NCBI GenBank assembly: GCA_015061185.1
Contig: SUWZ01000032.1
Location: 1-40,574 of the forward strand
DNA length: 40,574 nucleotides
Direction of reading: 5' to 3'
DNA from: Bacteroidales bacterium
Lineage (GTDB): Bacteria; Bacteroidota; Bacteroidia; Bacteroidales; Paludibacteraceae
The position numbers and the translations under genes are program-made. Within the stretch, counting starts at the first letter, position 1. Each line of letters starts with the position of its first letter. Positions 14,098-36,791 of this stretch are shown here, piece by piece. The notes beneath the pieces are model-generated. The model was given only the letters and a program-made list of their open reading frames with translations, was not told the origin of the DNA and made no database searches.

Positions 14098-14109
14098 TGT
14101 TTATGCTAT

Positions 14110-15765: not shown

Positions 15766-15776
15766 AACTCCTACAA

Positions 15777-16676: not shown

Positions 16677-16684
16677 ATCAAAAC

Positions 16685-19041: not shown

Positions 19042-19051
19042 ATTACCACAA

Positions 19052-21478
19052 TTATTTACTTACTACAGAAATAGCTGTTACAATAACCGAAGCCATTGAA
19101 ACGATTGAACCAAACAATGACACGAAGAACGATGCATTCTCTTTGCTATCATTTCCCTTATCAGGTTTTTCAGGAACAAAAATATGAGCTCCCGGCTCAA
19201 CCTCCGGATAATTCTTAAACCACAAGAAATGTCTTGTTGACGCAACCGAACCATTAGAATACGCAACATAAACCTTTCTCTTATCTGCACGATTTCCAAA
19301 ACCTCCGGCTCCTCTTACATATTTTCTTAAAGATGATGTCGTATAAACCTCTTTACCCGGCACTTGCACTTCTCCTCCAATTGTTATTGTTTCCAATTCC
19401 TTTGGAATGAAAATAATATCTCCATCTTCAATTTTTAAATCTCCTTCTCTTCCGGGTTTATCCAAAATTCGCTCCAATTGAATTCCGACTAAATCGGTAC
19501 GGGAACTTAGCTCTTTTCTTAAATCATCACTATTATTTTTATCTGTTTGATCCATGAGCATCGCTAATATCTTTTGATCTCTTTGTTTTTCTGCTTCTGT
19601 GCGATGTCCTGAACGAATCAAAAAAGCACCTTTCGGATAAGAATACTCCGTTAATCCTCCACTACGAGCCAAAACATCTGAAATCTTTTCTGTTTTGCGA
19701 GTAATGGCATAATAACCCGGCATCTTTACCTCTCCCACAACTTGAACTTTGCCTAACTTCTCCAAACCAACTTTCGACCGAACAGTAATTTGATCTCTTG
19801 GTTCAATTTTAAAATCTGCCCCAACACCGGACAAATCTTTAGTCATTGATAAAATAAATACCTCTGTTTTAACATCATCATACGCCAACTTTTCCCCGTC
19901 CCAAATTTGTCTGACAACTTCAACCTTTTCCGGATCTGCCTCATCTTTAAATCCTTTTGCCATGAAAAGTACATCCTTCAAGGTCATATTTTCATAGTAT
20001 GGGAATGAACCCGGTTCGAAAACTTGACCATATATCGAGACATTCTTTTTTGAATCAAAATCATTCTTTCCGCCAATGGTTACAATATCCTCTTTTTGTA
20101 ACTCTACATTGAAATTACCATCCATTAAATCTTTCACACTAAATGAAATAATCTCAGGTGTCAAATCCTCTTGCAGTCTAACCAATGATGCTTGCTCCAT
20201 AAAGGCATCTTCCGTCAAACCGTTTGCTTTCGTAATCAAATCACGAAGAGACATTCCCTTCTCTAACGCATAAACACCGGGACGAAATACACTTCCCATA
20301 ATTTGGACCCTATTCGTATATTTTTCTAAGATTTCTCCTACCTGATAAATATCACCTGATGCCGGAGTAAACATTTCAAACATCTCTGCAGGAACATCTG
20401 CAACACTTTTTTCTCCACCCTTATTACGCGATACAGAAATCCTTTCTGTGTAAGCATTATCCACAAAACCACCACAATATTTTAACAAATCATCAAGTGT
20501 CTCTCCCTCCTTCAACTCATATATTCCATCTCTTTTAACAGCTCCATTGATAGTAATTCTACTTTGATACGGAGGAACTTGAATCACATCTTGATCTTGT
20601 AATGTAATATCACTCGGCATAATTCCGTTCATCAAAAATTCATATAGGTCAACCTCCGCTAAAACTTTACCGTCACGAACTAAACGAATCGCACGCATAG
20701 AACCATTATTAGAAGGTCCTCCACAAGCATTTAATGCATTAAAGACAGAGGATACCGAAGACAATGTATAACTTCCCGGATTCGCAACCTCTCCTAAAAT
20801 ATAGACCTTAATAGAACGAATTTTATTCACGGTTACTGAAACGGTTGTCCGTCCGGATGCTATCGTACTATAAACGGATGTCATTTTTTTCTTAAGCAGA
20901 TTCTCTACCCGGTCCAAGGTAAGACCACTGACATGAATTAATCCAACTCCCGGCACTCTAATTGCTCCATCTCTCGACACCGTCAAATCGTATGTTGCCT
21001 CGCTCATTCCATAAACATCTACATGCAACACATCAGATGGTCCTACCTTATATGTTTTAGGTGTTGCCATATTTTGTCCCGGCTCAAAAGATAGCTTTGA
21101 ACTTTTGAATAAAGAGGCTCCAAAAATACGATTATCTGTTGCTCCATCTTCTATGCGCTGATTCTGAACAGCTGTTAATGTCATGTCTGATACCCCCTCT
21201 GACACGTCTGAAGTTGAAACTTGGTTAACTCGCATCTCCGAATTATTAATTCTTTGTTTTAATTTCTCGAACTCAGAAGAAGGCATATTCTTGGCTTTTG
21301 CCATTTGCTCCACATCAGACAAAGTATAGCCGGCATCTGTGTACTTCTTTACGAAGTCAGAAACCTGTGCATCCGACAAATTGTCCACCTTAACTTGATG
21401 CAAATTTTGCATTGTAATTTGTGCCGACAAACCTACACACACAAAGAAAACTGAAAGAAATAGATAAATTCTCTTCAT
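19052..21478 (-). CDS. Wza-like polysaccharide export outer-membrane protein with SLBB repeats
   Basis: The protein has about 808 residues. I chose the ATG at 21476-21478 because it gives MKRIYLFLSVFFVCVGLSAQ, a good signal peptide. Upstream ATGs at 21481 and 21499 are possible, but 21499 would leave almost no leader after the promoter. The N-terminal part holds the Poly_export domain (YKVGPSDVLHVDVYGMSE, SRDGAIRVPGVGLIHVSG). It is followed by at least five SLBB-type repeats (VYILGEVANPGSYTL, ITINGAVKRDGIYEL, VQIMGSVFRPGVYAL, VSIYGQVFEPGSFPY, VQVVGEVKMPGYYAI, ITIGGEVQVPGKEVY). The C-terminal hydrophobic segment SLFGSIVSMASVIVTAIS may insert in the membrane. It is the first gene of the operon, with a good promoter. 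Long multi-SLBB forms like this are common in Bacteroidetes. Confidence 0.92.
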   Translation of the reverse strand: MKRIYLFLSVFFVCVGLSAQITMQNLHQVKVDNLSDAQVSDFVKKYTDAGYTLSDVEQMAKAKNMPSSEFEKLKQRINNSEMRVNQVSTSDVSEGVSDMTLTAVQNQRIEDGATDNRIFGASLFKSSKLSFEPGQNMATPKTYKVGPSDVLHVDVYGMSEATYDLTVSRDGAIRVPGVGLIHVSGLTLDRVENLLKKKMTSVYSTIASGRTTVSVTVNKIRSIKVYILGEVANPGSYTLSSVSSVFNALNACGGPSNNGSMRAIRLVRDGKVLAEVDLYEFLMNGIMPSDITLQDQDVIQVPPYQSRITINGAVKRDGIYELKEGETLDDLLKYCGGFVDNAYTERISVSRNKGGEKSVADVPAEMFEMFTPASGDIYQVGEILEKYTNRVQIMGSVFRPGVYALEKGMSLRDLITKANGLTEDAFMEQASLVRLQEDLTPEIISFSVKDLMDGNFNVELQKEDIVTIGGKNDFDSKKNVSIYGQVFEPGSFPYYENMTLKDVLFMAKGFKDEADPEKVEVVRQIWDGEKLAYDDVKTEVFILSMTKDLSGVGADFKIEPRDQITVRSKVGLEKLGKVQVVGEVKMPGYYAITRKTEKISDVLARSGGLTEYSYPKGAFLIRSGHRTEAEKQRDQKILAMLMDQTDKNNSDDLRKELSSRTDLVGIQLERILDKPGREGDLKIEDGDIIFIPKELETITIGGEVQVPGKEVYTTSSLRKYVRGAGGFGNRADKRKVYVAYSNGSVASTRHFLWFKNYPEVEPGAHIFVPEKPDKGNDSKENASFFVSLFGSIVSMASVIVTAISVVSK

Positions 21479-21518
21479 CATACAATCATTGAAATTCATT
21501 TATTGCCATAATAGTTCG

Positions 21519-21550
21519 CAAAATTAAATTTTTTCATTGGATTTGCCAAA
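21519..21550 (-). promoter_or_regulatory. Promoter of the wza-wzz-coaBC-porD-recN-purL unit
   Basis: On the minus strand TTTG (21547-21550) is followed after 20 bp by TAATTTTG (21519-21526), a full match to the Bacteroidetes -33/-7 pattern. It lies about 40 bp upstream of the chosen wza start and outside the foldback element at 21619-21808. Confidence 0.68.
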
Positions 21551-22059
21551 TTAAGAAGTGCTTTTAATCACGTATTTACAAATATTTAGGTATAAATTCG
21601 ATTTTTATTAAATATTTTAGAAGTTGTTTGAATTTTATTTCGAGCATATTTGAGAGATTTTTAAATCTATTTTTAGTCTTCTTTTGCAGAAAATAGTGGA
21701 CTATTATCAAAAAAGGAGAATAAAAATAGGTTAAAAAGAATCTCAAAGATGCCGAAAATAAGAGAGTGAAACTCTAATTTTTTTTTTAATAAAATTTAAA
21801 CAACTTCTAGAAAGGTTCTATAAATTCTTTTCGAGTGATTTTTGAATTTATTTCGAGGAAATTGCTTTGCGAAAGAGGGAAGCAGTGCGAATCTTTGACC
21901 AACTGACAATCAGAAAGTTGCCTAAATAAATCAAAAGTACCGAAAAGTTTATCAATCCATGATTTGTACTTTTTAATTCTAAACGGGGAATTTAATGTAC
22001 TCTCCTTAACGACCATTTTAAGCGAACTTTAGATGAATTTGTAGAACGCAGCTCAATAT
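21551..22059. other. Intergenic stretch between divergent wza and ruvA
   Basis: Apart from the foldback element, this ~500-bp AT-rich stretch holds only small structures. Examples are CAACT...AGTTG at about 21900-21922 and repeated TTTCGAG words near 21640, 21830 and 21854. A 69-codon reading frame on the minus strand (21807-22016) reads like protein in part but has no recognisable homologue, signal or promoter, and it runs into the foldback arm. I do not call it a gene. The stretch may be the remains of a mobile or repetitive sequence. Confidence 0.45.
21619..21808. repeat. ~190-nt imperfect foldback (palindromic) element
   Basis: The outer arms 21619-21639 and 21788-21808 are inverted copies (20 of 21 positions match). 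The inner arms 21645-21681 and 21715-21751 match at 29 of 37 positions. The middle is ATAGT-GG-ACTAT (21693-21704). Inner arms and centre share one midpoint, near 21698. The right side carries about 35 extra nt between its two arms. This looks like a MITE-like or structured intergenic repeat. No transposase and no target-site duplication were identified. Confidence 0.6.
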
Positions 22060-22090
22060 TTTGCAATGTGCGAATTTTCCGCTATCTTTG
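22060..22090 (+). promoter_or_regulatory. ruvA-sprA promoter
   Basis: TTTG (22060-22063), a 19-bp spacer and TATCTTTG (22083-22090) give an excellent Bacteroidetes promoter. The expected transcription start is near 22096, about 25 nt before the ruvA ATG. This rules out the in-frame TTG at 22103 as a sensible start. Confidence 0.75.
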
Positions 22091-22120
22091 TCGGCGGTTT
22101 AATTGGCAAATTTTATAAAA

Positions 22121-22699
22121 ATGTTTGAATACATCAAAGGTGAAATTTCAGAATTGAAACCAACGGCTGCTGTGATTGAGACCGGACAAATAGGTTTTAC
22201 TTTGAACATTTCTCTAAATACATACGCTAAAATTGAAGGACAATCGAGTGCGAAATTATTCATTCACGAAGTTATTCGCGAAGATGCGTTTACCCTTTAT
22301 GGTTTCGCAGAAAAGGAAGAACGAGATATATTTCTATTACTAATTTCCGTTTCCGGAGTGGGTGCAAATACTGCAAGAACCATATTATCCTCTTTTTCAG
22401 TTGCTGAATTAGAAGCAATCATCTGTTCGGGAAATGTTAATCAACTGAAAGGGGTTAAAGGAATTGGACTTAAAACCGCTCAGCGAATTATTGTTGATTT
22501 GAAAGATAAGGTTGGTAAGTCTGAATCGGACGAATTATTCTTATCTGAAAACAATAATCGAGAAGAGGCATTAACAGCCCTCACCGTCTTAGGGTTTCTT
22601 CGTAGTAATTCAGAGAAAGTTTTAGATAAGATTTTGATAGAATCTCCAACGTTACCTTTAGAAAAATTAATCAAAGAGGCACTAAAACGATTAAGATAA
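22121..22699 (+). CDS. ruvA: Holliday junction branch-migration protein RuvA
   Basis: RuvA binds Holliday junctions as a tetramer and loads the RuvB motor. The protein is 192 residues from the ATG at 22121, which gives the standard MFEYIKGEISELKP start. The order is the OB-fold domain (about 1-62), paired helix-hairpin-helix motifs (VSGVGANTARTIL and VKGIGLKTAQRIIVDLKDK), and a C-terminal domain III that contacts RuvB (EEALTALTVLGFL). The length is normal. sprA/sov follows 29 bp later; I know this ruvA-sprA adjacency from other Bacteroidetes. Confidence 0.97.
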   Translation: MFEYIKGEISELKPTAAVIETGQIGFTLNISLNTYAKIEGQSSAKLFIHEVIREDAFTLYGFAEKEERDIFLLLISVSGVGANTARTILSSFSVAELEAIICSGNVNQLKGVKGIGLKTAQRIIVDLKDKVGKSESDELFLSENNNREEALTALTVLGFLRSNSEKVLDKILIESPTLPLEKLIKEALKRLR

Positions 22700-22728
22700 C
22701 GTTCTTAATATCTACTAAGAAAAAAAAA

Positions 22729-25700
22729 TTGAAACAGTTTTATAAATATATAATCGGTATCTCGCTACTAATCAGTGGTATTGTAGCATTTTCTGCCTAT
22801 GCTCAAAAGGTGGCGACAGACTACATTGTTTCTCCGAAAGAAAAGGAAGAAAAGATGAAGTCTGACTCAACTGAACTTCGTTTCCCAATAAAAAAAGAGG
22901 TTGTCACATACGATGATTTTAAACAAAAAACTCCTGCGGATTTAGAAGACCCGTCTAATGTTACAAAAGATGTAATATATGACCCTAATTCCGGTTACTA
23001 CATCTATCGTACAAGAATCGGGGATATGGATATTGTAACTCCTTTTGTATTGAGTGAAGATGAATATCGCGCTCACTCATTACAAGAGTCCATGAATTCT
23101 TATTGGGCAGAAAAAGCTAAAAATAATACCGATGGAGGAAATAAATTCTCCTTGAGTGAATTGAAAATTGGCTTGGGGAAAACCGGAGATAAAATTTTTG
23201 GTCCCGGTGGTATTCAATTGAAAACCCAAGGTTCTGTCGATTTAGATTTTGGATTTACCATCTCTAAACGCGAAAATCCTACCATATCGGAAAATAACCG
23301 AATTAACACGATATTCGACTTTGATACAAAAATTCAACTTTCTGCCAATGGATCTGTTGGAGACAAAATTAATTTCAATTTAAATTATAATACCGAAGCT
23401 ACGTTTAATGCCGACCAAAGTTTGGTTAATTTAGGATACAAAGGTGACGAAGATGATATCATCCAACGTATCGAAGCCGGTAACGTAAGCCTTCCGCTCT
23501 CCTCTTCATTAATATCCGGAAGTACCGACCTTTTTGGATTCAGAACTGATTTGCAATTTGGTAAATTGAAAGTTTCTGCAATCATTACTCAACAAGAATC
23601 CGAGAGAAAAACAATTTCAACTGAAGGTGCACAAACAACAGAATTTGAATTATTACCTACTGAATATGAGGAAAACAGACACTTCTTCCTCTCTACTTAC
23701 TTTTACGATCATTATGACGAATGGGCTAAAAATGCTCCTAATCCCCAATCGGGAATTGTCATCAATAAAGTAGAAATATGGACCACCAATAATTCTAATT
23801 CTACGTCTAATTACACAACGCGCAATGTTGTAGCTCTCGCTGACTTAGGAGAAACTTACAATGATGAGGATGTCTCAGAAGAATTGCCACAAAATAGCAA
23901 TGGAACTCTTTATAACACGGTCAAGAATAATCCTGGGATTAGAGATATTCAAACCGCTTCGTACTCCCTCGGTTTGATTAAAAAGGAGAATGGCGACTCA
24001 TTGGAAGCCGCCAAAGATTTTGAAATCTTAAACAATGCAAAACTATTAAACGCCTCTGAATATATCTTAAATCAGGAATTGGGTTACATCTCTTTGAAAA
24101 GTTCTGTAAATCCAGACAATATCGTCGCTGTCGCATACGAATACACAAAGGGTGGAAAAACTTATCGCGTGGGTGAATTAACAACTTCTACCACTGATAC
24201 TTCAAAGACTTCTACTCAAAATATCTATGTCAAACTGATTAAGAGTTCAATCCCCGCTCCTAATCATAAGCGTCTGTGGAATCTTGCAATGAAAAATATT
24301 TATTCATTGGGGGCTTATAATATTCCTTCTGATAATTTTGAAGTCGAAATTAAATATTATTACCAAAGCGACTCTGTCACCTCCTATTTGACATATATCC
24401 CTGCTCTAAGTAATCGTAACTTATTGCAAGTCCTTAATATGGATAGGCTGAATAAACGGAATAAGGCTATGCCGGATGGCTACTTTGATTATATAGAAGG
24501 TTACACTGTTCACCCTGCAACAGGTAGAATTATTTTCTTATCAACTCGTCCGTTTGATAAAGGGGTTAAAGATGGGTACGGAAATATGCATGGAGTGGAA
24601 AAATATGCCTTCCCTCAATTGTACGACTCTACTTTAACTGTTGCTGAACAATATACAGAAAAGAATAAGTTTATAATCACAGGAGAGTATAGTTCTACGT
24701 CCGGTTCTGAAATTCGGTTAGGTGTGACCAATATTGCCAGAGGTTCTGTTCGCGTTACTGCCGGAGGACGAACTCTGACAGAGGGAACAGGCTACACCGT
24801 GGACTATAACTTGGGTATCGTCAAAATTTTGGATGAAACTGCTTTAGCTTCAAATTCGCCTATAGATGTTTCGGTTGAAAGTCAATCATTCTTTAATACG
24901 CAAAGAAAATCTCTATTAGGAACCAATTTGGAGTATGCATTTTCTGATAAATTTACTTTAGGTGGAACAATCCTTCATCTATCTGAAAAACCACTGACTC
25001 AAAAGGTTAATTTAGGAAATGAACCTATCTCTAATACTATTTGGGGCGTAAATGGTACATTTAAGTCGGATTGGCAATGGTTGACATCTGTAATTGACAA
25101 GATTCCTCTTATCAATGCAACAGCTCCCTCTTCTATTGCATTTTCGGGAGAGTTTGCACAGTTGTTGCCTGGACACAATAAGGCCGTAAATCAAGATGAC
25201 TATGGCACCTCTTATATTGACGATTTTGAGGGGACAGAATCTTCTATCAACATAAAAAATCCAACAGCATGGGCTTTGGCAAGTACTCCTAGAATCACCT
25301 CCGGTCCACTCTCTGGGAAACGATTCATAAAGGATAATGATACATTCTGGAAAGAGCAAGTTGATAATGGGTATATTAAAAATACCGATATGCTTAATAT
25401 TGGGTATAACCTCAATCGTGCGCATATCGCATGGTACTATATCGACCAAATCTTCACCAACGGAAATGCGAATACTCCAAAGCATATCAAAAATGATAAG
25501 GAGATGCTCTCTCACCACTACATAAGACCGGTTATCGAACAAGAGATTTATCAGGATAAAGACCCTATTTTTGGAGAATCTTCTACACTCCAGACATTAC
25601 ATCTGCACTATTATCCAAGAGAGAGAGGTGCCTACAACTTGAATGTTGATATTGATGAAAATGGTTATTTAAATGCCCCTGAGAGTAACTGGGCAGGTAT

Positions 25701-28700
25701 TATGAGGAAGTTGGATAATACCAATTTTGAAACTTCCAATATCGAATATTTGGAGTTTTGGTTGATGGACCCATTTATTTATGATGATATAAATACATCT
25801 TCCGGAAAGCTTGTATTTAACTTGGGAAGCGTTTCAGAGGATGTTCTAAAAGATGGTAGAAAGGCCTTTGAAAATGGCTTGCCAACATCTAACAATAATG
25901 CTGTTAATGATACAACAATTTGGGGGCGTGTTCCTCGCTTGACCTCCATCACAAACTCTTTTGATAACTCTAATCTATATCAACAAGATTTAGGATTGGA
26001 CGGCATCTCAAATGATGATGAATATAACTTCTATACGTACAGCAAATATTACGAAGAAATAAACAGCAAAGTTACCGGTACTGCAAAATTGAGGTGGGCA
26101 GAAGAGGCATTTTCTCCATTATCTGACCCTGCCGGAGATAATTTCCACTACTTCAGAGGAGATGACTATGATGAGCGTGAATTGGATATCTTCAATAGAT
26201 ATAAATATTATAATGGTGTGGAGGGAAATTCTACCGCTAATTCTGACGAATTTACATCCACTGCAACCACATCCCCCGACTCTGAAGATTTGAACGGGGA
26301 CAATACTCTTAATGAAACAGAACAATATTACGAGTATATTGTAGAAATTGACAAAGATATGTTTGAAAATGAAGCTAACTGGGAAAGTAACTTCATCACA
26401 AACCGCGTAGAATCTACTGTTGAGCTTAAAAATGGGAATAGTGACATTGTGAAATGGTATCAATTCCGTATTCCAATTAACACAACCAGAAAACGTGCAG
26501 AGGGTAACATCAATGATTTTCGTTCTATCCGCTTCATTCGTATGTATTTGACAGGATTCGAAGAGGAAGAGCATTTAAGATTTGGTGAACTTCAATTGGT
26601 TCGTACTGATTGGAGAGTTTACGAAAAGAATGAAAAATTGGTTGATTATAGCATCGCAAGTAAACTTCAAAAAACAGGAAGAATTGACATCTCGTCTGTT
26701 TGTATCGAAAATGACTCGCGTAAAAAACCTGTTGGCTACCAATTGCCTCCGGGTATAGATAGAACCATAGATCCAAGTCAGATGCAACTAACTGAGGAGA
26801 ACGAACAGGCTATGGTGCTAAAAATTGATAGTTTGGAACCTAATGATGCTCGTGCTGTTTACAAAACAATTACGCTTGACACTCGTCAGTATAAGCGATT
26901 CAAAATGTTTGTTCATGCTGAAGAGATGATTGATGGAGAAAATATTCCAGACAATCGCCTATATGCTTTCGTACGTTTTGGCTCCGACTTTACTGAAAAT
27001 TATTACGAGTATCGCATCCCATTGAAAATTACTCCTGCAGGAGCTATCGACCAATATTCTGTATGGCCTCAAGCTAATAATTTCGACTTCGAATTTGAGA
27101 TGTTAACCAACTTGAAATTGGAGCGCGACAAAAAAAGAAATGCGGGTCAAGTGCGCTACAACGAACGTTATACCAAAATGCACGGAAATAATACAATGGC
27201 TGTTATTGGTTCTCCATCATTTGGCGATATCTCTTCTATGATGATTGGTATCGTTAACGAGGATGATGTAACCCATAATGCAGAAATATGGGTGAACGAA
27301 ATGCGCATGTCCGGATACGATGAAGAGGGCGGTTGGGCTGCTATTGCAAATTTAGGTATTGTCTTCTCTGATTTAGGTTCATTAACTGTGGGCGGACAAA
27401 TTGAAACAGTTGGTTTTGGTAATATCGAGGATAATATCACCGATAGAAATCAAGAGGATTTCTACGAATATAATATTACTGCCGCAGTTCAGTTAGGTAA
27501 ATTATTCCCGGAAAAAGCAAAAGTAAATTTGCCATTTACCTACACTAGAACTCATCAACGTACCTCTCCAAAATATGATCCAATGAACACAGATACAGAG
27601 TTGAGCAAAACGTTGGATAATTTTGATCATGAGAAAGAAAAGGATTCTATAAAAGCTATGTCTCAAACAGATAAAGTGTACCAAAGTTATACTTTAAACA
27701 ACGTTCGTGTTGGTATTACTAGTAAAAAACCTATGCCATACGACCCTGCAAACTTCTCATTCAGTTTGGGGTACAATGAGTCTGTTGAAAATAATCCGGA
27801 GGTGGAATATGAAAAGATTAAGAATTACAAAGGTACTTTCAATTATGTTTATTCAATTAATCCCAAACCGGTAGAACCTTTCAAAAAGGTAAAATTGTTT
27901 AAATCTAATAATTGGAAATTAATCCGCGATTTTAATTTCTACTACGTCCCTAAGAATATAGCATTTAGCACCTCTATGACCAGGTATTATGAAGAAATTC
28001 AATCGCGCAACTACAATTCTCCTATTGTGAAAGATACCACTTTCCAATACATGTCATTTGACAAGAATTGGCAATGGGATAGAACAGCGGATATCAAGTG
28101 GGATCTGACTCGCTCTCTTAAACTTAGATTTACATCTGCTACTAATTCTGAAATCAACGAGATTATCAGAAGTTCAGATGATGAAAGACTTGTTAATATT
28201 CCAATCAATAAAGAGTATTTGCGAGACATCAATTACTTTGATTGGTATGAACAATGGAAAGATACTGTATGGAGAAGCATCAAGGAGTTTGGTGAACCTG
28301 TCTCTTATGAACAGAAATTTACTGCAAGTTACGCAATCCCTATAAATAAATTGCCTCACTTGGATTGGATTACCTCCAACGCTCAGTACAATGCAAATTA
28401 TCAATGGGACAAGGGTACTATTCTATCATTGGGTGAAAGTCCTATCACCGGAAATATGATGGAGAATGTTAGAAATTGGACAGGTGATGTACGCTTGAAT
28501 TTTGAGAATTTCTATAACAAATTCCCTTACTTGAAAGATTTGAATAGAAGATTGAATAACAAAAATGCTGTCAAGAAAAAAGATGCAGAACCTAAAAAAC
28601 CGAAGAATTATGAGCGTAAACGTCTTCGTCTTAAAAAAGGAAATAAGACTCGTATCAATCACCGCTTAAATTCTACAAACTTAAATGTAGAGTTGACTGA

Positions 28701-30222
28701 TACTGCCGGAAATATTGTTCCGGTGAAGGTAAAAACTGTTGATGCCAATTCAATCACAATTACCAGTAAAGAGGATCTAAATAATCTTACACTGAAAATT
28801 ACTACAATTGTTAAGAAAGAAGGTCCTATGACAGCCGTAAAAGATTACTCAATCAGATTCTTGACAATGATTAGAAATATCAGCGTCAATTATCGTCACT
28901 CCGACGTATTGGAAATTAATGGTTACAAACCATTAAGCGGATTCTTGGGACAAGATCACTCCAATCCGGGCTATGACTTTACATTTGGTTTCTTTAATTC
29001 CGAAAAGTTCTTACAACGGGCATATCGTGAAGATTCTTTGTTGATTGTCAACGATAATATCACCAATCCTGTGATTCACAGTATTACCCAGAATTTGACG
29101 GTTAAATCATTGGTGGAACCTATTCCGGGCTTGAAGATTGATCTTAATGCCTCTTGGTACAAAAATCACCAAACAGACATCTACTATATGTATGGTTATG
29201 ATAGTGATTGGAATTCTCAAGACATTGCGGGCTCTTTCTCACGAACTTGCCTCCCTATCAGAACTGCATTTATGGATAATACGCATAATTCGGAAGTGTT
29301 TGAAGAATTCCTAAAAAATAGAGACATCGTCCAATCAAGAATTTATAACGAAGTGGGAAGAGAGAATCCTAACGGGAAAATCAACTACGTTGATAAAAGC
29401 TCGGCAGACGTTCTTATCCCTGCATTCTACTCTACCTATTTCGGACGTAGTGCTCACAATGTGGATTTGAATTATATCCCTAACGGAACATTCAAAAGCA
29501 TCATCACTTCGTTGATTCCAAACTGGAAAATTACTTGTGATGCTTTCATGTGGATTCCGGCTATCAAAAAACATTTTAAAGCATTTAATTTAAATCATAC
29601 GTACAAGAGTACATACAATATTGGTCCATACGAATCTTTGACTGATTGGACTAACAATGTATATGGCAGTGATTTCTATGGTACAGCAGGTGAGTTTGAA
29701 GACTTCAACAATATTACTTCAAAATACGATGTTTTGGGTGTTAGCATCAATGAGCAGTTCTCACCTCTCTTTGGAGTGGATGCAAGCATGAAAAACAGTT
29801 TGTCCATGAAATTTGAAATCAAAAAATCGCGTACCGTTCAATTGGATATTCCGGGTAACCAAATCTTAGAATCGTCCAGTTTGGAATTTGTAGTTGGTTC
29901 CGGTTATCGTTTTGATGACATTGGTATGATTTTAAATATCGGAGAAAAACAAAAGAAGTTTAAAAATGATTTGAATTTAAGAGCCGACATCGGTTTCAAA
30001 AATACAGATGCCTATATTCGTGTTATTGATGAAGAATATTCTCAGTTGAGTAGTGGTTTGAGATCATTCACTTTGAAATTCTCTGCCGACTATCTATTCA
30101 GCGAACGTTTGAATATCAAGTTGTACTATGATTGCAAATCAAGCAATCCAAAGGTGTCTGAAGGTTTCCCAACTGTTACCAATGACTTTGGTATCGCATT
30201 CAAGATTAACTTGACTCGATAA
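22729..30222 (+). CDS. sprA: Type IX secretion translocon SprA/Sov
   Basis: SprA (Sov in Porphyromonas gingivalis) is the giant outer-membrane beta-barrel that serves as the T9SS protein-conducting pore. The 2497-residue length fits the family (about 2400-2500). A TTG start at 22729 gives the signal peptide MKQFYKYIIGISLLISG...AYAQK; no ATG in frame would keep it. Recognisable parts are the N-terminal SprA region (YIVSPKEKEE, DPNSGYYIYRTRIGDMDIVTPF), the conserved DFDTKIQLSANGSVGDKINFN-type strands, a second SprA_N-like region with DYGTSYIDDFEGTESSINI near 825, and the aromatic C-terminal barrel ending FGIAFKINLTR. It probably shares the ruvA promoter, and it ends in a bidirectional terminator. 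The frame is unbroken throughout. Confidence 0.97.
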   Translation: MKQFYKYIIGISLLISGIVAFSAYAQKVATDYIVSPKEKEEKMKSDSTELRFPIKKEVVTYDDFKQKTPADLEDPSNVTKDVIYDPNSGYYIYRTRIGDMDIVTPFVLSEDEYRAHSLQESMNSYWAEKAKNNTDGGNKFSLSELKIGLGKTGDKIFGPGGIQLKTQGSVDLDFGFTISKRENPTISENNRINTIFDFDTKIQLSANGSVGDKINFNLNYNTEATFNADQSLVNLGYKGDEDDIIQRIEAGNVSLPLSSSLISGSTDLFGFRTDLQFGKLKVSAIITQQESERKTISTEGAQTTEFELLPTEYEENRHFFLSTYFYDHYDEWAKNAPNPQSGIVINKVEIWTTNNSNSTSNYTTRNVVALADLGETYNDEDVSEELPQNSNGTLYNTVKNNPGIRDIQTASYSLGLIKKENGDSLEAAKDFEILNNAKLLNASEYILNQELGYISLKSSVNPDNIVAVAYEYTKGGKTYRVGELTTSTTDTSKTSTQNIYVKLIKSSIPAPNHKRLWNLAMKNIYSLGAYNIPSDNFEVEIKYYYQSDSVTSYLTYIPALSNRNLLQVLNMDRLNKRNKAMPDGYFDYIEGYTVHPATGRIIFLSTRPFDKGVKDGYGNMHGVEKYAFPQLYDSTLTVAEQYTEKNKFIITGEYSSTSGSEIRLGVTNIARGSVRVTAGGRTLTEGTGYTVDYNLGIVKILDETALASNSPIDVSVESQSFFNTQRKSLLGTNLEYAFSDKFTLGGTILHLSEKPLTQKVNLGNEPISNTIWGVNGTFKSDWQWLTSVIDKIPLINATAPSSIAFSGEFAQLLPGHNKAVNQDDYGTSYIDDFEGTESSINIKNPTAWALASTPRITSGPLSGKRFIKDNDTFWKEQVDNGYIKNTDMLNIGYNLNRAHIAWYYIDQIFTNGNANTPKHIKNDKEMLSHHYIRPVIEQEIYQDKDPIFGESSTLQTLHLHYYPRERGAYNLNVDIDENGYLNAPESNWAGIMRKLDNTNFETSNIEYLEFWLMDPFIYDDINTSSGKLVFNLGSVSEDVLKDGRKAFENGLPTSNNNAVNDTTIWGRVPRLTSITNSFDNSNLYQQDLGLDGISNDDEYNFYTYSKYYEEINSKVTGTAKLRWAEEAFSPLSDPAGDNFHYFRGDDYDERELDIFNRYKYYNGVEGNSTANSDEFTSTATTSPDSEDLNGDNTLNETEQYYEYIVEIDKDMFENEANWESNFITNRVESTVELKNGNSDIVKWYQFRIPINTTRKRAEGNINDFRSIRFIRMYLTGFEEEEHLRFGELQLVRTDWRVYEKNEKLVDYSIASKLQKTGRIDISSVCIENDSRKKPVGYQLPPGIDRTIDPSQMQLTEENEQAMVLKIDSLEPNDARAVYKTITLDTRQYKRFKMFVHAEEMIDGENIPDNRLYAFVRFGSDFTENYYEYRIPLKITPAGAIDQYSVWPQANNFDFEFEMLTNLKLERDKKRNAGQVRYNERYTKMHGNNTMAVIGSPSFGDISSMMIGIVNEDDVTHNAEIWVNEMRMSGYDEEGGWAAIANLGIVFSDLGSLTVGGQIETVGFGNIEDNITDRNQEDFYEYNITAAVQLGKLFPEKAKVNLPFTYTRTHQRTSPKYDPMNTDTELSKTLDNFDHEKEKDSIKAMSQTDKVYQSYTLNNVRVGITSKKPMPYDPANFSFSLGYNESVENNPEVEYEKIKNYKGTFNYVYSINPKPVEPFKKVKLFKSNNWKLIRDFNFYYVPKNIAFSTSMTRYYEEIQSRNYNSPIVKDTTFQYMSFDKNWQWDRTADIKWDLTRSLKLRFTSATNSEINEIIRSSDDERLVNIPINKEYLRDINYFDWYEQWKDTVWRSIKEFGEPVSYEQKFTASYAIPINKLPHLDWITSNAQYNANYQWDKGTILSLGESPITGNMMENVRNWTGDVRLNFENFYNKFPYLKDLNRRLNNKNAVKKKDAEPKKPKNYERKRLRLKKGNKTRINHRLNSTNLNVELTDTAGNIVPVKVKTVDANSITITSKEDLNNLTLKITTIVKKEGPMTAVKDYSIRFLTMIRNISVNYRHSDVLEINGYKPLSGFLGQDHSNPGYDFTFGFFNSEKFLQRAYREDSLLIVNDNITNPVIHSITQNLTVKSLVEPIPGLKIDLNASWYKNHQTDIYYMYGYDSDWNSQDIAGSFSRTCLPIRTAFMDNTHNSEVFEEFLKNRDIVQSRIYNEVGRENPNGKINYVDKSSADVLIPAFYSTYFGRSAHNVDLNYIPNGTFKSIITSLIPNWKITCDAFMWIPAIKKHFKAFNLNHTYKSTYNIGPYESLTDWTNNVYGSDFYGTAGEFEDFNNITSKYDVLGVSINEQFSPLFGVDASMKNSLSMKFEIKKSRTVQLDIPGNQILESSSLEFVVGSGYRFDDIGMILNIGEKQKKFKNDLNLRADIGFKNTDAYIRVIDEEYSQLSSGLRSFTLKFSADYLFSERLNIKLYYDCKSSNPKVSEGFPTVTNDFGIAFKINLTR

Positions 30223-30262
30223 AAATTGAGGGAGTCAGAACACTCCTGATTCCCTCAATTTT
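30222..30262. terminator. Bidirectional terminator between convergent sprA and Nudix genes
   Basis: AAAATTGAGGGAGTCAG (30222-30238) and CTGATTCCCTCAATTTT (30246-30262) form a 17-bp stem with one mismatch and a 7-nt loop, flanked by A/T runs on both sides. It follows the sprA stop directly. The Nudix stop codon (30235-30237) and its last codons lie inside the hairpin. Confidence 0.87.
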
Positions 30263-30735
30263 GCAAAATCGACCTCAAAGTTAGGGGTAAATACCGACTT
30301 TGAAAGCGAGTTTTCTATCTCTTCTATCGACCAATATCGTCCCTCTGTCACCTCATTTTTGTCAGGTTTGGGCTCTACATCAGACACCGCATAATGCACA
30401 TAGATCATCTCTCGCTCAACTTCACTTTCCCATATATACCGAAAGAGAAACTTAGGCCGGATACCCTCTAAACCTAACTCTTCGCGAGCCTCGCGTAGCA
30501 AAGCCGACTCTATCTCTTCTCCGTAATCAACATGCCCCCCAACAGAAGTATCCCACTTGCCGGGCTGAATATCTTTCCAATCTGCTCGCTTCTGCAAATA
30601 TAATTCGCCTTTTGTATTGAATAAATGAAGATGAACAGCCACATGTAAAATCTTAGAACCATTGTGACAATCAGAACGTAATGCCTTACCAAGCACATTA
30701 CCCTCTTCATCTATTATAGGAAAATACTCTTTCAT
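30235..30735 (-). CDS. Nudix hydrolase, Idi/YfcD-like
   Basis: The 166-residue protein has a complete Nudix box, GHVDYGEEIESALLREAREELGLEG (given in parts: G-H-V-D-Y-G-E-E, REAREELG), which binds Mg2+ for hydrolysis of a nucleoside-diphosphate-linked substrate. The N-terminus (EYFPIIDEEGNVLGKALRSDCH, HVAVHLHLFNTKGELYLQKRA) resembles the IPP-isomerase-like YfcD branch, but the substrate cannot be told. I start it at the ATG at 30733-30735. An upstream in-frame GTG (30759) overlaps the -7 promoter element and so cannot be the start. The 3' end is embedded in the terminator shared with sprA. Confidence 0.9.
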   Translation of the reverse strand: MKEYFPIIDEEGNVLGKALRSDCHNGSKILHVAVHLHLFNTKGELYLQKRADWKDIQPGKWDTSVGGHVDYGEEIESALLREAREELGLEGIRPKFLFRYIWESEVEREMIYVHYAVSDVEPKPDKNEVTEGRYWSIEEIENSLSKSVFTPNFEVDFAKLRESGVF

Positions 30736-30758
30736 AATTAAATCTATTATAATTTCCA

Positions 30759-30789
30759 CAAAGATACAATCAAATCAGAAGTGAACAAA
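30759..30789 (-). promoter_or_regulatory. Nudix gene promoter
   Basis: On the minus strand TTTG (30786-30789), 19 bp and TATCTTTG (30759-30766) make a full Bacteroidetes promoter. Its position fixes the Nudix start at the ATG at 30735 rather than the GTG at 30759. Confidence 0.72.
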
Positions 30790-30824
30790 ACAAACAAATC
30801 AATCGTTTTCTTTGAAAAAAAACT

Positions 30825-31145
30825 ATGACACAATTTATTCTTAATCTCTTATTCTCTTTTTTCAAACAAGAAATAACCCTAACAAAATTTAAAATCAGGA
30901 ACAAATTGGCTGATGCATTAACCTTTTTTATTGTCATTGCTATTTGCTTAACCAACTCGATACTATTTCTATTATTTGCTTCTCTGGCAACTTACCACTA
31001 TATAAAAGAATGGCATGGTGATACAGGTATTGCGCTTCTTTGCGCTGCAAGCCTGAACATCATCACCATGCTGTTATTTGTTCTTTTCCGAAAAAGATGG
31101 ATAAAACCAACACTCTCTAAATTGGTCTCAAAATTTATGGAATAG
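30825..31145 (+). CDS. Small two-helix membrane protein, holin-family-like
   Basis: The 106-residue protein has an amphipathic N-terminus (FKQEITLTKFKIRNKLADA) and two predicted membrane helices (about 30-55 and 68-88), ending in a basic tail (FRKRWIKPTLSKLVSKFME). It looks like the Bacteroidetes 'phage holin family' or YqjE-like membrane proteins that occur as ordinary chromosomal genes; no phage gene is nearby. The function is unknown. It is divergent from the Nudix gene, with about 90 bp between them. A TTTCTTTG just before the start is a poor -7 candidate. Confidence 0.7.
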   Translation: MTQFILNLLFSFFKQEITLTKFKIRNKLADALTFFIVIAICLTNSILFLLFASLATYHYIKEWHGDTGIALLCAASLNIITMLLFVLFRKRWIKPTLSKLVSKFME

Positions 31146-31196
31146 GAGCGATACTTCTTAAGGCGGATTCCCAAAAAAGAGTTTAATAGAACCGCC

Positions 31197-32578: not shown

Positions 32579-33880
32579 TTACTCATTCATAAGAAATGCC
32601 TTGAACGATGCAAAATCTTTCGGCAAATTAATACTCTGCTTGGTTCCTTTCATAAAGGCTTGCAACTTCTCCGGAATAGAGATCTCCTCACCTAAAATTC
32701 GATCCACAGTATCTTTGAATTTCGCAGGGTGAGCAGTCTCCAAGAATACACCCACCTCATCACTCTCCAGATACTCAGACAAAGCACGATACCCCACAGC
32801 ACCATGAGGATCCAAAAGATAACCATGCTTACGATAACAATCTAACAACGTTTCGCTGATTTGTTCATCGGTATAGGTACAACCCGAAATATCATTTTTG
32901 ATTGCCTCATGAGAGTGGCCATATAAATCCAATACGCGAGCAAAGTTACTTGGATCGCCCACATCCATAGCATTTGCGATTGTCTGAACAGATGCTTTAG
33001 GGGTATAAACGCCACTGTTCAAATATTGGAAAAATACATCGTTGCGATTATTGGCAGCAATAAATCGTTTCACCGGCATACCCATTCTCTTGCCGAACAA
33101 TCCGGCAGTAATATTTCCAAAATTACCGGACGGCACACAAATAACAATGTTATCTTTTTTACCCAATTTATGAAGTTGAGCCACCGCATAGAAATAATAA
33201 AATGCTTGCGGTAAGAAACGTGCCACATTGATTGAGTTGGCAGATGTCAGATACATCTTCTTGTTCAACTCTTCGTCCATAAATGCCGACTTCACCAATG
33301 CCTGACAATCATCAAATACACCATCAATCTCCAATGCAGTAATATTTTGACCTAATGTAGTGAATTGGCATTCTTGGATAGGGCTGACTTTCCCTTTCGG
33401 GTAAAGGACATAAACATGAATTCCATCAACACCCAAAAAGCCGTTAGCCACAGCAGAACCGGTATCACCCGAAGTTGCCACCAAGACATTGACATCCTTT
33501 TGCCCCTCTTTCTTGATGAAATATCCCAAAAGACGCGACATAAATCTTGCACCAACATCTTTAAAAGCCAATGTAGGACCATGGAACAACTCTAAACTAT
33601 AGATATTGTCATTAACATGCACCAAAGGAACATCAAAGTTCAAAGTTTCATAAACGATTTTTTTCAGGTCCTCAGCCTCAACATCCTCACCAAAGAAAGC
33701 ATCCGCCACAACGTATGCAACCTCTTGAAAAGAAAGGTCTTTCATCTCTTCAAAAAACGAGTCGGGCAAACTCTTAATTACCTCAGGCATATACAAGCCT
33801 CTGTCAGAGGCCAATCCCTTTACGACAGCCTCTTGCAAAGTAGCTTGTGTCGATTTGTTATTCGTACTATAATATTTCAT
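32579..33880 (-). CDS. thrC: Threonine synthase
   Basis: ThrC converts O-phosphohomoserine to threonine with pyridoxal phosphate. The 433-residue protein shows the N-terminal YYSTNNKSTQATLQEAV, the PLP-Lys motif GPTLAFKDVGARF (Lys about 109), TSGDTGSAVA, SGNFGNITAG and ETAHPAKF. The domain order and length are those of the bacterial type. It lies about 28 kb from thrA and its kinase partner, ahead of hisH-hisF, with which it appears co-transcribed. Confidence 0.97.
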   Translation of the reverse strand: MKYYSTNNKSTQATLQEAVVKGLASDRGLYMPEVIKSLPDSFFEEMKDLSFQEVAYVVADAFFGEDVEAEDLKKIVYETLNFDVPLVHVNDNIYSLELFHGPTLAFKDVGARFMSRLLGYFIKKEGQKDVNVLVATSGDTGSAVANGFLGVDGIHVYVLYPKGKVSPIQECQFTTLGQNITALEIDGVFDDCQALVKSAFMDEELNKKMYLTSANSINVARFLPQAFYYFYAVAQLHKLGKKDNIVICVPSGNFGNITAGLFGKRMGMPVKRFIAANNRNDVFFQYLNSGVYTPKASVQTIANAMDVGDPSNFARVLDLYGHSHEAIKNDISGCTYTDEQISETLLDCYRKHGYLLDPHGAVGYRALSEYLESDEVGVFLETAHPAKFKDTVDRILGEEISIPEKLQAFMKGTKQSINLPKDFASFKAFLMNE

Positions 33881-34228: not shown

Positions 34229-35281
34229 ATGAATTTACCTCAAAATACTAAACTTCCCATATCCTCGTTAGCAAGGATTTTTGACAATACTACTGCTACC
34301 TACAAATTTTATTGGTTCGTGGCGATGATGGATATTGTTATAAAAGAACATAAAACACGAATTTCATTTTGGGAAATAATCGCAGGAATGATTGCAGAGT
34401 CTTGGTATCCCATTCATTACTTTAAACTATCATTTGGGAAATCCGACTCTTTATTTGTAAAATCACTTGAAATTCAAAAGGAGTATCAAATTTCAATCGA
34501 ATCAGACAAAGAAAAGATAAAAAATCTATTAGTTGACAACCTAAAAGAAACAAAAAAGTTTTTGAAAATTTTCTCTATAAATGTACCCTATCGTTTTCTC
34601 TCTCCATGGATAAAATACACCTGCGACGAAGAAGTAATAGCTAAATCACAACAATATGAAAATAATGCTCTTTACGCAATTTATAACGATGGAATCGTAG
34701 TTAATGATATTTGGGTAGAATATCTGACAAAGCACTATAAAATTTTGCGAGATTTTGCTTTTTGGAACTTAACAGAATTTTTACAAAAACGGAATCCCAA
34801 TGTTCCAGATGTTCCATCAAAACTGATTAAGCCCATTCAAAGAGATTCTCTTACAAAACAGCGTAAATATTGGGACTCTTACATTGAAATCACAGGAGGA
34901 ATTAATTGCATATATACAGGAAAAAACATAATTGCAAAAGAATATGATTTAGACCATTTTGTCCCATGGAGTTTTGTTTCGCACAATTTGTTATGGAACT
35001 TAATTCCTTCTGATCCAAGTGTTAATTCAGCAAAAAGTAATAATCTTCCCCAATTAGATAAGTATTTACAACCATTTGCGTCCCTTCATCAAGATGCTAT
35101 GAAAATATTATATGAGAAGAACATGAATAATAAAATTTTTGAAGATTATCTGATTATTTATGATTCTATTCCAGACTTAATAAATCTTTCGAAATCGGAT
35201 TTTTTCAATGTTTTCAAGCGAACATTCACGCCAATGGTACAAATAGCAGAAAACATGGGGTTTAAAATTTGGCAACTATGA
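34229..35281 (+). CDS. HNH endonuclease domain protein
   Basis: From the ATG at 34229 (MNLPQNTKLPISSLARIFDN) the protein has 350 residues. Residues 1-200 form a domain with the conserved opening LARIFDNTTATYKFYWF. The C-terminal part is an HNH nuclease fold: Cys227 in CIYTGK, catalytic Asp242-His243 in YDLDHFVPWSFV, Asn257 in LLWNLIP, and NSAKSNNLP (266-274). This HNH subtype occurs in many bacterial genomes, often in variable regions, and its DNA target is unknown. The stop overlaps the start of the methyltransferase-HIT gene (ATGA, 35278-35281), so the two are made together. No toxin/antitoxin or restriction gene of a named type is adjacent. Confidence 0.88.
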   Translation: MNLPQNTKLPISSLARIFDNTTATYKFYWFVAMMDIVIKEHKTRISFWEIIAGMIAESWYPIHYFKLSFGKSDSLFVKSLEIQKEYQISIESDKEKIKNLLVDNLKETKKFLKIFSINVPYRFLSPWIKYTCDEEVIAKSQQYENNALYAIYNDGIVVNDIWVEYLTKHYKILRDFAFWNLTEFLQKRNPNVPDVPSKLIKPIQRDSLTKQRKYWDSYIEITGGINCIYTGKNIIAKEYDLDHFVPWSFVSHNLLWNLIPSDPSVNSAKSNNLPQLDKYLQPFASLHQDAMKILYEKNMNNKIFEDYLIIYDSIPDLINLSKSDFFNVFKRTFTPMVQIAENMGFKIWQL

Positions 35282-36150
35282 AAAAAATTAAAAACAATCC
35301 GCATTTAACTGCTAAAGAACGTACAACCGTCTCATTTCCAACTCGTTGGCTAAAAAATAACAACCTACTAAAAGGTGATATTTTAGACTTTGGGTGCGGA
35401 TTTGGATTCGATACTGACCAACTTCAAAAAGAGGGGTTCAGCATCATTGGTTATGATAACTATTATCGTCCAGAATATCCTAATAAACAATTTGATACGA
35501 TTATTTGCAATTATGTTCTTAATGTGCTTGAATCTGAAGAACAGGCAGAGGTTTTAATGTCAGTTTCTGAATTGCTTAAACCCAATGGCATTGCTTATTT
35601 TACAGTGCGAAGAGATTTAAAAAGTGAAGGATTTCGCACTCATTTCGTACATAAACAACCAACTTATCAATGCAATGTTGTTCTACCCTACAAAAGTATA
35701 TTCTCTAATGAAAATTGTGAAATTTATGAATACAAACTCTTTAACAAAACTGATTACAAAAAGAAATATAAGATTGTCAAAGAATGTCCTTTTTGCAACT
35801 TAAATCCTAAAGTGGAGATGGTAAGCGAAAGTGCAACCGCCATTGCATTCTTAGATGGTTACCCTGTCAGTAAAGGTCATACGCTAATAATCCCAAAACG
35901 TCATGTTGCTAACTATTTTGATCTAACAACACATGAACAACGAGCATTATGGCTTTTGGTAAACCGGTGCAAAAAATTATTAACAGAAAAGTTCAATCCG
36001 GATGGCTTTAATGTTGGCATTAACATTAACGAAGCTGCAGGTCAAAGCATATTCCATGTCCATATACACTTAATCCCTCGTTACAAAGGTGATGTGAAAG
36101 AGCCTAAGGGTGGTGTGAGAGGTGTTATCCCGAATAAACAGAAGTATTAA
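35278..36150 (+). CDS. Methyltransferase - HIT hydrolase fusion protein
   Basis: The 290-residue protein joins two enzymes. Residues about 1-160 form a class I SAM-dependent methyltransferase, with motif I DFGCGFG (37-43), YDNYYRPEYP, NYVLNVLES (motif IV region) and LLKPNGIAYFTVRRD. The YYxPEYP...NYVLNVLE pattern recalls methyltransferases found beside DNA phosphorothioation genes, but this is only a resemblance. Residues about 165-290 form a HIT domain: zinc-type CPFC (170-173), FLDGYPVSKGHTLIIPKRH and the histidine triad H260-V-H262-I-H264. HIT enzymes cleave AMP or GMP from phosphoesters and phosphoamidates. The ATG at 35278 overlaps the HNH stop; an in-frame TTG at 35269 is less likely. 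The natural substrate is unknown. Confidence 0.88.
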   Translation: MKKIKNNPHLTAKERTTVSFPTRWLKNNNLLKGDILDFGCGFGFDTDQLQKEGFSIIGYDNYYRPEYPNKQFDTIICNYVLNVLESEEQAEVLMSVSELLKPNGIAYFTVRRDLKSEGFRTHFVHKQPTYQCNVVLPYKSIFSNENCEIYEYKLFNKTDYKKKYKIVKECPFCNLNPKVEMVSESATAIAFLDGYPVSKGHTLIIPKRHVANYFDLTTHEQRALWLLVNRCKKLLTEKFNPDGFNVGININEAAGQSIFHVHIHLIPRYKGDVKEPKGGVRGVIPNKQKY

Positions 36151-36154
36151 TCCT

Positions 36155-36189
36155 CCTACCACTCGCAATAGGTTTTTCTGGCTAAATTG
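36155..36189 (-). pseudogene. Duplicated 3' end of the CYTH gene
   Basis: This 35-bp segment repeats 36329-36363, the last codons and stop of the adjacent CYTH gene, with three differences. Read on the minus strand it still encodes NLARKTYCEW-stop (the gene has NLARKPYCEW). It lies 5 bp after the methyltransferase-HIT stop and has no upstream coding part. It is either the tail of a deleted tandem CYTH copy or an att-like duplication left by an insertion. Confidence 0.75.
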
Positions 36190-36245
36190 TGAGTCTTAGA
36201 TTTACGGCAATCGCATCATACGTTCTACGGACTGATTCAGGAATT

Positions 36246-36278
36246 CCTTTGGGAAACCTTTGGGAAGCCTTTGGGAAA
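36246..36278. repeat. Three tandem 11-bp repeats (CCTTTGGGAAR)
   Basis: The unit CCTTTGGGAAA/G occurs three times in direct tandem, followed by CC. It sits in the 139-bp segment between the two CYTH 3'-end copies. Its function is unknown. Confidence 0.85.
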
Positions 36279-36329
36279 CCGGATGTTCCCTTATCGCCAT
36301 TAAAATGTCGTGAATATGGATTAAATACC

Positions 36330-36791
36330 CTACCACTCGCAATAGGGCTTTCTGGCTAAGTTGGCATTGGTGTAGCGTTTGTCGCCGGAAACCTCCATGC
36401 CAATCCAATCGGGTTTTTCAAAAGATTGTGTCTCGCTCTCTAACTCAATTTCTGCTACAACTAATCCTCTGTTCATGCCTAAAAACTCATCCACCTCCCA
36501 ACAATTGCCGGCATACATTATCTTGTATCGGTACTTCTCCACAATGGGGGTCTTGGCCAACGTGAAAAGTGCTTCTGCATCCTCCATCGGTATGTCATAC
36601 TCAAATTCTAACCGAGATATATTGCTGCTCTTCCCTTTTATCGTCAACTTGGCTTTTTCGCCCTCTATCCTAACTCGCACGGTATTGTCTCCTTTCTCAT
36701 TAAGATAGGCTTGCTTATAGTGAACTCCTACTGCCCCCTCTCTCCAATTATCATTCTTCAGAAGAAATTTTCTCTCTATTTCTATATTCAT
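36330..36791 (-). CDS. CYTH domain phosphatase-like protein
   Basis: The 153-residue protein folds as a CYTH tunnel enzyme, which binds a triphosphate with two metal ions. The signature ExExK is present at the N-terminus (NIEIERKFLL), followed by alternating charged strands: VRVRIEGEKAKLTIKGK, EFEYDIP, VEKYRYKI, WEVDEFLGMNRGLVVAEIELE. The ending GDKRYTNANLARKPY is typical of the short bacterial members related to inorganic triphosphatases. The substrate (triphosphate, ThTP or other) cannot be decided. The gene converges on the methyltransferase-HIT gene, and its last 35 bp are duplicated downstream. Confidence 0.92.
   Translation of the reverse strand: MNIEIERKFLLKNDNWREGAVGVHYKQAYLNEKGDNTVRVRIEGEKAKLTIKGKSSNISRLEFEYDIPMEDAEALFTLAKTPIVEKYRYKIMYAGNCWEVDEFLGMNRGLVVAEIELESETQSFEKPDWIGMEVSGDKRYTNANLARKPYCEW

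Follow-up and report, generated by a model that had tools for sequence, protein, structure and literature searches.

An HNH nuclease gene coupled to a methyltransferase-HIT fusion gene: a putative defence module with a possible link to DNA phosphorothioation

The stretch of DNA analysed here (the window) comprises positions 1 to 40,574 of contig SUWZ01000032.1 of a Bacteroidales bacterium (assembly GCA_015061185.1). Two of its genes overlap: the first encodes an HNH nuclease, and the second encodes a single protein that holds an S-adenosylmethionine (SAM) methyltransferase and a HIT hydrolase (Table 1). We propose, with a probability of about 0.5, that this pair is a portable, defence-island HNH restriction module which is linked to DNA phosphorothioation (PT) and is derived from or shared with PT gene clusters.

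An earlier reading, made from the letters of the window alone (the sequence-only reading), had described a two-gene layout with an ATGA overlap and intact catalytic motifs. Sequence and Pfam agree on the layout, and the motifs DFGCGFG, CPFC, and HVHIHL are all found. H243, N257, and N266 of the HNH protein occur in 47/47 rows of alignment A2, so that the protein has a nuclease domain with catalytic residues (HNH_4, 1.7e-11), as expected of an enzyme that joins a sulfur-binding domain (SBD) to HNH. In alignment A1, D37, G39, G41, and G43 of the methyltransferase are present in 44/44 rows, as are H260 and H264 of HIT, while H262 and C170/C173 are found in 42/44. The HIT fold together with the H-x-H-x-H motif places the latter domain in the HIT superfamily. 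The structure models have a predicted local distance difference test score (pLDDT) of 90.5 and a predicted template modelling score (pTM) of 0.79 for the HNH protein, and 87.3 and 0.85 for the methyltransferase-HIT protein. Against the nearest relative (L045), the ratio of non-synonymous to synonymous substitution rates (dN/dS) is 0.135 for HNH, 0.065 for the methyltransferase, and 0.055 for HIT; hence, all three are under purifying selection. An own promoter had also been claimed for the HNH gene. This was not confirmed by a sigma-70 scan (7 sites vs. a mean of 11.4 in shuffled sequences), which relied on a consensus unsuited to Bacteroidota.

Table 1 Positions of the gene pair, its domains, and flanking features in the window
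Feature	Position	Strand	Details
HNH nuclease gene	34229..35281	+	350 aa; Pfam HNH_4 1.7e-11
N-terminal domain of HNH protein, sulfur-binding-domain-like	34244..34786	+	residues 6-186
HNH catalytic domain	34844..35263	+	residues 206-345; H243, N257, N266
ATGA stop/start overlap of HNH gene and methyltransferase-HIT gene	35278..35281	+	sequence
Methyltransferase-HIT fusion gene	35278..36150	+	290 aa; Pfam HIT 8.9e-23, Methyltransf_23 1.3e-11
Class I SAM methyltransferase domain	35278..35742	+	residues 1-155; motif I DFGCGFG at 35386-35406
HIT hydrolase domain	35782..36147	+	residues 169-290; CPFC 35785-35796; HVHIH 36055-36069; tail GD..P(R/K)GGVR
Repeat of CYTH gene 3' end, copy 1, beside HIT stop codon	36146..36189	.	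repeat search, 84% to copy 2
Repeat copy 2, end of the CYTH gene itself	36320..36363	.	repeat search
Flank: threonine synthase-like gene (named by eye)	32579..33880	-	open reading frame; dS 0.08 to L045
Flank: CYTH-domain gene (named by eye)	36330..36791	-	in 16/16 same-genus genomes; dS 0.09 to L045

From 160 confirmed GTDB loci, we kept the best 80; as they were picked by similarity to the window's protein, they form a near sample. HNH genes were sought with hidden Markov models for five HNH types and were counted as neighbours at up to 400 bp from the HIT gene. By this measure, HNH stands next to HIT in 79 of these 80 loci, in 14/14 family loci, and in 26/27 class loci. The neighbourhood that the sequence-only reading had proposed to look for thus exists in other genomes, and its recurrence in 79/80 related loci excludes pairing by chance. 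The exceptions are L124 (Rivularia), in which HNH is missing and the HIT motif reads H-A-G-I-H, and L037, which is broken by stops. An interrupted HNH frame is seen in three of the 26 HNH-bearing class loci (L018, L029, and L038).

Whole genomes give a similar picture. Among the 150 genomes of the family sample, 25 have a methyltransferase-HIT match and 22 an HNH match, and all 22 are among the 25. The three HIT-only genomes (G008, G048, and G113) keep just a HIT end of 58-62 residues. These remnants lie at G008:C16:27492-27674, G048:C27:7562-7735, and G113:C13:358585-358770 and start at residues 229-233, so a common recombination boundary is possible; by eye, their neighbours are defence-like in two cases, a TIR-like protein (L176) and a helicase (L178). 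In the class sample of 395 genomes, the methyltransferase-HIT match occurs in 27, HNH in 22, and both in 18. Four class genomes have an HNH match without a HIT match (G214, G229, G439, and G493). Intact HIT-less copies of HNH lie beside PT genes (G439, G229) or beside transposase genes of the insertion sequence (IS) type (G214); the others are fragments or contain stops.

The composition of the unit varies. L113 holds HNH, methyltransferase, and HIT in a single frame of 723 aa, and HNH is fused to HIT in L039 and L044. A HIT gene without methyltransferase follows HNH in L028-L036, L040, L042, and L043. Separately, G061 (L184, 1765-6217) has HNH and HIT with the methyltransferase cut down to a stub. 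Of 138 plasmid records with a HIT match, four were inspected (L125-L128). HIT precedes HNH in L125 (Polaromonas) and L127 (Aromatoleum) and follows it in L128 (Hymenobacter), and the methyltransferase is missing from all three; L126 (Jeotgalibacillus) has HIT without HNH. An Acinetobacter plasmid (L264) carries HNH and methyltransferase without HIT. Over 33 loci, the distances correlate at 0.90 for methyltransferase and HIT, whereas the values are 0.62 for HNH and methyltransferase and 0.61 for HNH and HIT. These weaker correlations indicate that HNH has been partly reassorted. To judge from gene content, the comparison shows HNH with HIT (or methyltransferase-HIT) as a conserved, sometimes fused unit that is mobile between genomic places.

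One rival explanation is restriction-modification, in which the methyltransferase would mark the host DNA, HNH would cut unmarked DNA, and HIT would be an accessory. Translational coupling of nuclease and methyltransferase, with the HNH gene ending in ATGA at 45 of the 77 loci for which its final four bases were read, and the invariant motif I (44/44 rows) are in line with it. However, the methyltransferase is lacking in the chromosomal and plasmid loci listed above while HNH and HIT stay, and it is a stub in G061. Moreover, the domain has only about 155 aa, the model contains no separate target-recognition domain, inspection of its sequence by eye revealed no DPPY motif, and its nearest solved folds are small-molecule enzymes, in searches that covered this domain and the N-terminal domain of HNH mostly via matches to the other domain. 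As the methyltransferase is optional, restriction-modification by it is disfavoured, and we regard this explanation as very unlikely. The fold comparison favours small-molecule enzymes over the RNA or DNA modification that the sequence-only reading had considered. The domain is related to a PT-associated family: TIGR04096 (DNA phosphorothioation-associated putative methyltransferase) matches it with 59.1 bits (E 3.4e-16, model positions 5-96 of 478). The window's methyltransferase is a relative of this family and not a member, as its score lies below the 150-bit cut-off.

We compared the neighbours of the pair with PADLOC. Removal of near copies and of proteins of at least 1000 aa left 104 of 135 neighbours (L072 and L083, in which no open reading frame spans the match, were left out), and the control comprised 110 genes, taken from related genomes in 17 of the 20 stretches asked for. 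The 104 nearest neighbours match 314 PADLOC families at 1e-10, of which the tally names 25, compared with 13 families in the 110 control genes. Since one protein can match many PADLOC models, 20 randomly chosen neighbours were scanned singly, and the member counts rest on these: 10/20 match, compared with at most 14/110 control genes. Named neighbours include SspD, SspB, and JetA (Wadjet). The closeness to defence genes, a check proposed by the sequence-only reading, is confirmed, and the pair is very probably a defence-associated functional unit. As a separate observation, HNH-HIT in G061 has as direct neighbours, all encoded on one strand, a TIR-type (TIR-APAZ-type) partner of prokaryotic Argonaute (pAgo) and a short pAgo.

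The surroundings change from locus to locus. A set of 800 open reading frames from 78 loci and their surroundings contains 400 singletons, and 12 loci at most share any one family of flanking genes. The full pair is present in 7/13 same-genus genomes of the family sample. G000 and G143 share the window's site, and between them dS is 0.16, 0.31, and 0.44 for HNH, methyltransferase, and HIT, respectively, whereas it is 0.08-0.09 in the flanking genes; the higher dS suggests that the pair has been exchanged at this site. Apart from these two, no HNH or methyltransferase-HIT gene lies within about 1.5 kb of CYTH in the other 14 same-genus genomes (L197 ends about 220 bp past the 3' end of the gene). 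Nor was a clean empty site found, and the threonine synthase gene does not adjoin CYTH in these 14 genomes either. The accessory character proposed for the pair is supported by its patchy presence and changing neighbours. Such a patchy, mobile, and defence-clustered distribution is unlike that of housekeeping repair and bears on a further explanation, in which HNH would cut, HIT would remove adenosine monophosphate (AMP) from abortive ligation ends like aprataxin, and the methyltransferase would cap or mark ends of DNA or RNA. Defence islands would then be merely the places where the module travels. The nearest solved folds of the HIT domain are bacterial HIT, Fhit, and Hint, and not aprataxin, with which no comparison as such was made. 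This role in repair or RNA processing is improbable. Of the defence, repair, or modification roles that the sequence-only reading had left side by side, the first is thus retained through islands and coupling, while methylation-based restriction and repair are disfavoured.

PT genes are the company that points to a specific kind of defence. Sulfur-transfer genes (DndC/SspD, DUF4007/SspB) lie near 18/80 related loci. They accompany HNH relatives on 6/12 plasmid replicons and are absent from the 17 control stretches; on 12/12 of these replicons no HIT stands beside HNH, and six have no PT genes within the flank seen. In G229, DndC adjoins HNH (TIGR03183, 2.5e-133), and in G439, SspB, SspC, and a cysteine desulfurase lie beside it. 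A TIGR04096 methyltransferase and HNH share one cluster on pSYSM and on a NIES-970 plasmid. At the level of gene clusters, this shows that HNH and the methyltransferase both have relatives inside PT clusters. L024 has a true SBD-HNH gene (8h0l, E 1.7e-14) in the HNH position beside methyltransferase-HIT; the SBD-HNH query matched 24 genomes, and a partial match (L241) was left out. As a side observation, L260 (Synechocystis pSYSM, 14098-31192) holds a window-type HNH, a TIGR04096 methyltransferase, DUF4007, and a cysteine desulfurase in one region, and this plasmid of a model cyanobacterium is a tractable place for testing a window-type HNH.

Several results weigh against a PT link. DUF4007 and DndC have no match in the window's genome, so that the pair there stands without the sulfur-transfer genes of a PT cluster, which fits a cutter of foreign PT-DNA but also fits no PT link. 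A genome-wide excess of DUF4007 is unconvincing (4/25 genomes with the pair vs. 10/125 others). The HIT subfamily occurs in 11 phage loci, none with HNH. For the PT-dependent SBD-HNH enzymes described so far, dnd genes are seldom close by (under 3.6% as reported in PMC7461809). Taking both sides together, we lean moderately towards the pair being PT-linked.

The N-terminal domain of the HNH protein is the candidate sensor. Its best fold match is 8h0l, the sulfur-binding domain of Hga. In sulfur-binding domains, conserved HR/HK and YP residues recognize sulfur, as described in the accessible text of PMC7461809. In alignment A2, Y25-K26 is found in 47/47 rows, Y60 in 45/47, and P61 in 34/47, and these are candidate counterparts only. 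An attempt to prove a sulfur-binding domain from sequence failed. Profiles of the N-terminal domain matched 21 SBD-HNH sequences weakly in hhalign, and the four TYK-bearing HNH types matched one another better (P 1e-2 to 1e-6). Searches by phmmer with type A' (L112), L127, or the window HNH, and a profile search with A2, found HNH domains of solved structures but no SBD chains.

In the PT-linked restriction module that we prefer, the HNH protein would read a DNA mark, most likely PT, via its N-terminal domain, and the HNH domain would cut invading DNA that carries it. As the window's genome is without the two tested PT-modification markers, the host would be unharmed by an enzyme that cuts PT-marked DNA on entry. 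That HNH cuts PT-marked DNA is tentative, and we give it somewhat less than even odds. The methyltransferase-HIT protein would handle the chemistry around the mark, with HIT acting on nucleotide-phosphate products by taking sulfur off released nucleoside phosphorothioates or AMP off adenylated ends, and the optional methyltransferase modifying the same class of substrate. PT enzymes of the PAPS (3'-phosphoadenosine 5'-phosphosulfate) reductase type are thought to act via adenylated DNA. Human HINT1 converts dGMPS to dGMP with release of H2S (PMC8775712). This chemistry and the adenylated intermediates give a HIT hydrolase plausible substrates in the PT pathway. By analogy, HIT could be a PT desulfurase, which is doubtful; within the same module, it may either process PT or adenylated nucleotides or restrain the nuclease. 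A stricter version is a sense-cut-clean immune unit, in which a diverged sulfur-binding domain would read PT, the Cas9-like HNH would cut, and methyltransferase-HIT would detoxify or recycle the products. PT would be S-methylated and/or its P-S or P-N bond hydrolysed, so that PT nucleotides could not poison or re-enter DNA. We hold this version to be quite unlikely. If true, it would be the first PT-linked defence with its own product-processing enzyme, and no HIT-domain enzyme would have been assigned a part in DNA sulfur chemistry before. The HIT copies of phages would then serve counter-defence or the salvage of PT.

The main rival is restraint in the manner of toxin and antitoxin. HNH would harm the host, and HIT or methyltransferase-HIT would check it by binding or by hydrolysing an activating ligand or adduct; infection would free the nuclease, leading to death or growth arrest, and in PT clusters the PT machinery would restrain it. 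This would explain that HIT stays next to the nuclease through partner swaps and in both gene orders (L125, L127, and L128), that the intact HIT-less HNH copies lie beside PT genes (G439, G229) or IS-type transposase genes (G214), and that in phages this HIT subfamily occurs by itself (0/11 with HNH), like a stolen antidote. For Thoeris type II, the HIT protein ThsC has been suggested to act as an off-switch (PMC8565338). However, the usual order is nuclease first and antidote second, HNH stands without HIT on the Acinetobacter plasmid L264 and on 12/12 plasmid replicons, six of them without PT genes within the flank seen, and the catalytic histidines of HIT are kept in 42-44 of 44 rows, which plain binding would not need. 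We consider restraint rather unlikely, although it ranks first among the rivals.

Among known systems, the pair resembles the SBD-HNH enzymes (EcoWI, SprMcrA, ScoMcrA, and Hga), which share a sensor-like N-terminal domain and a C-terminal HNH; the Hga domain is the nearest fold of the window's N-terminus, and L024 swaps in a true SBD-HNH. It differs in that its HNH is HNH_4 (Cas9-like) and theirs is HNH_2, in its N-terminal domain, which matches SBD-HNH sequences weakly, in its constant HIT or methyltransferase-HIT partner, and in that its relatives have PT genes nearby more often than those enzymes do (by the figure given in the available part of PMC7461809). PT clusters (Dnd, Ssp, and type 4 BREX) contain HNH relatives and the TIGR04096 family, whereas the window's pair stands without PT genes and the cluster copies of HNH stand without HIT. 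Thoeris type II also has a HIT hydrolase in a defence locus, and the PADLOC model of ThsC matches the window's HIT partially (3.9e-11, positions 44-113 of 148), but the partner here is an HNH nuclease and not ThsA/ThsB. Septu PtuB and other effectors use HNH nucleases as well (PMC8565338, accessible portion), whereas the window's pair has no ATPase partner. No system in PADLOC-DB 2.0.0 matches both genes; the best matches are 5.6e-5 for HNH (Cas9 HNH domain), the partial ThsC match for HIT, and 8.7e-7 for the methyltransferase (mad2). No description of an HNH-HIT pair was found in the literature searched, outside of which were subscription papers, preprint servers, and DefenseFinder. In the available text of a PT survey (PMC10853773), the word HIT has 0 occurrences; in that of a BREX survey (PMC12839542), "HIT" has 4, not all of them shown, and "histidine triad" 0.

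Overall, we rate HNH-HIT as a putative modification-linked HNH restriction system with a HIT partner. If this is right, it would be a widespread portable defence module, missing from PADLOC-DB 2.0.0, that several phyla have on their chromosomes and plasmids. It would also tie DNA sulfur modification to the HIT hydrolases, an old family whose role in bacteria is uncertain. Bench tests could then address the substrates of bacterial HIT proteins and the reason for the presence of a TIGR04096 methyltransferase in PT clusters. Should the PT link fail, the nuclease and its HIT partner, which stay coupled through swaps and fusions, would still provide a clean system for the control of a nuclease by a nucleotide hydrolase.

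Relatives of HIT also occur in viruses. A first scan of viral contigs with the window's protein gave no relative. With alignment A1, 18 loci were obtained, and no HIT-bearing one has HNH. Eight IMG/VR contigs (L242-L249) carry the same HIT subfamily at 46-59% identity without HNH; by eye, the neighbours include a CinA-like protein in L248 and L249 and a RecA-like one in L242. The viral copies could serve counter-defence or nucleotide salvage. In the Streptomyces phage phiSASD1 (L269:3042-4369), a HIT gene with the same type of tail (44% identity) comes immediately after an AANH-like gene, so named in the annotation, whose product matches PAPS-reductase-type models (4.4e-7), a possible phage sulfur/nucleotide pair.

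At the window's site, the "duplicated sequence" noted beside the pair proved to be a duplicated tail of the adjacent CYTH gene, whose 3' end recurs as a direct repeat of 44 nt (84%). In the sister genome G143, about 12 bp separate the HIT stop codon from CYTH, and the additional spacer of about 175 bp that the window has at 36146-36363 is missing. Hence, the repeat goes back to a duplication in place or to a small insertion, and its candidacy as an attachment site was not borne out. Elsewhere in the window, an open frame of 2497 aa (22729-30222) resembles, by eye, SprA of the type IX secretion system.
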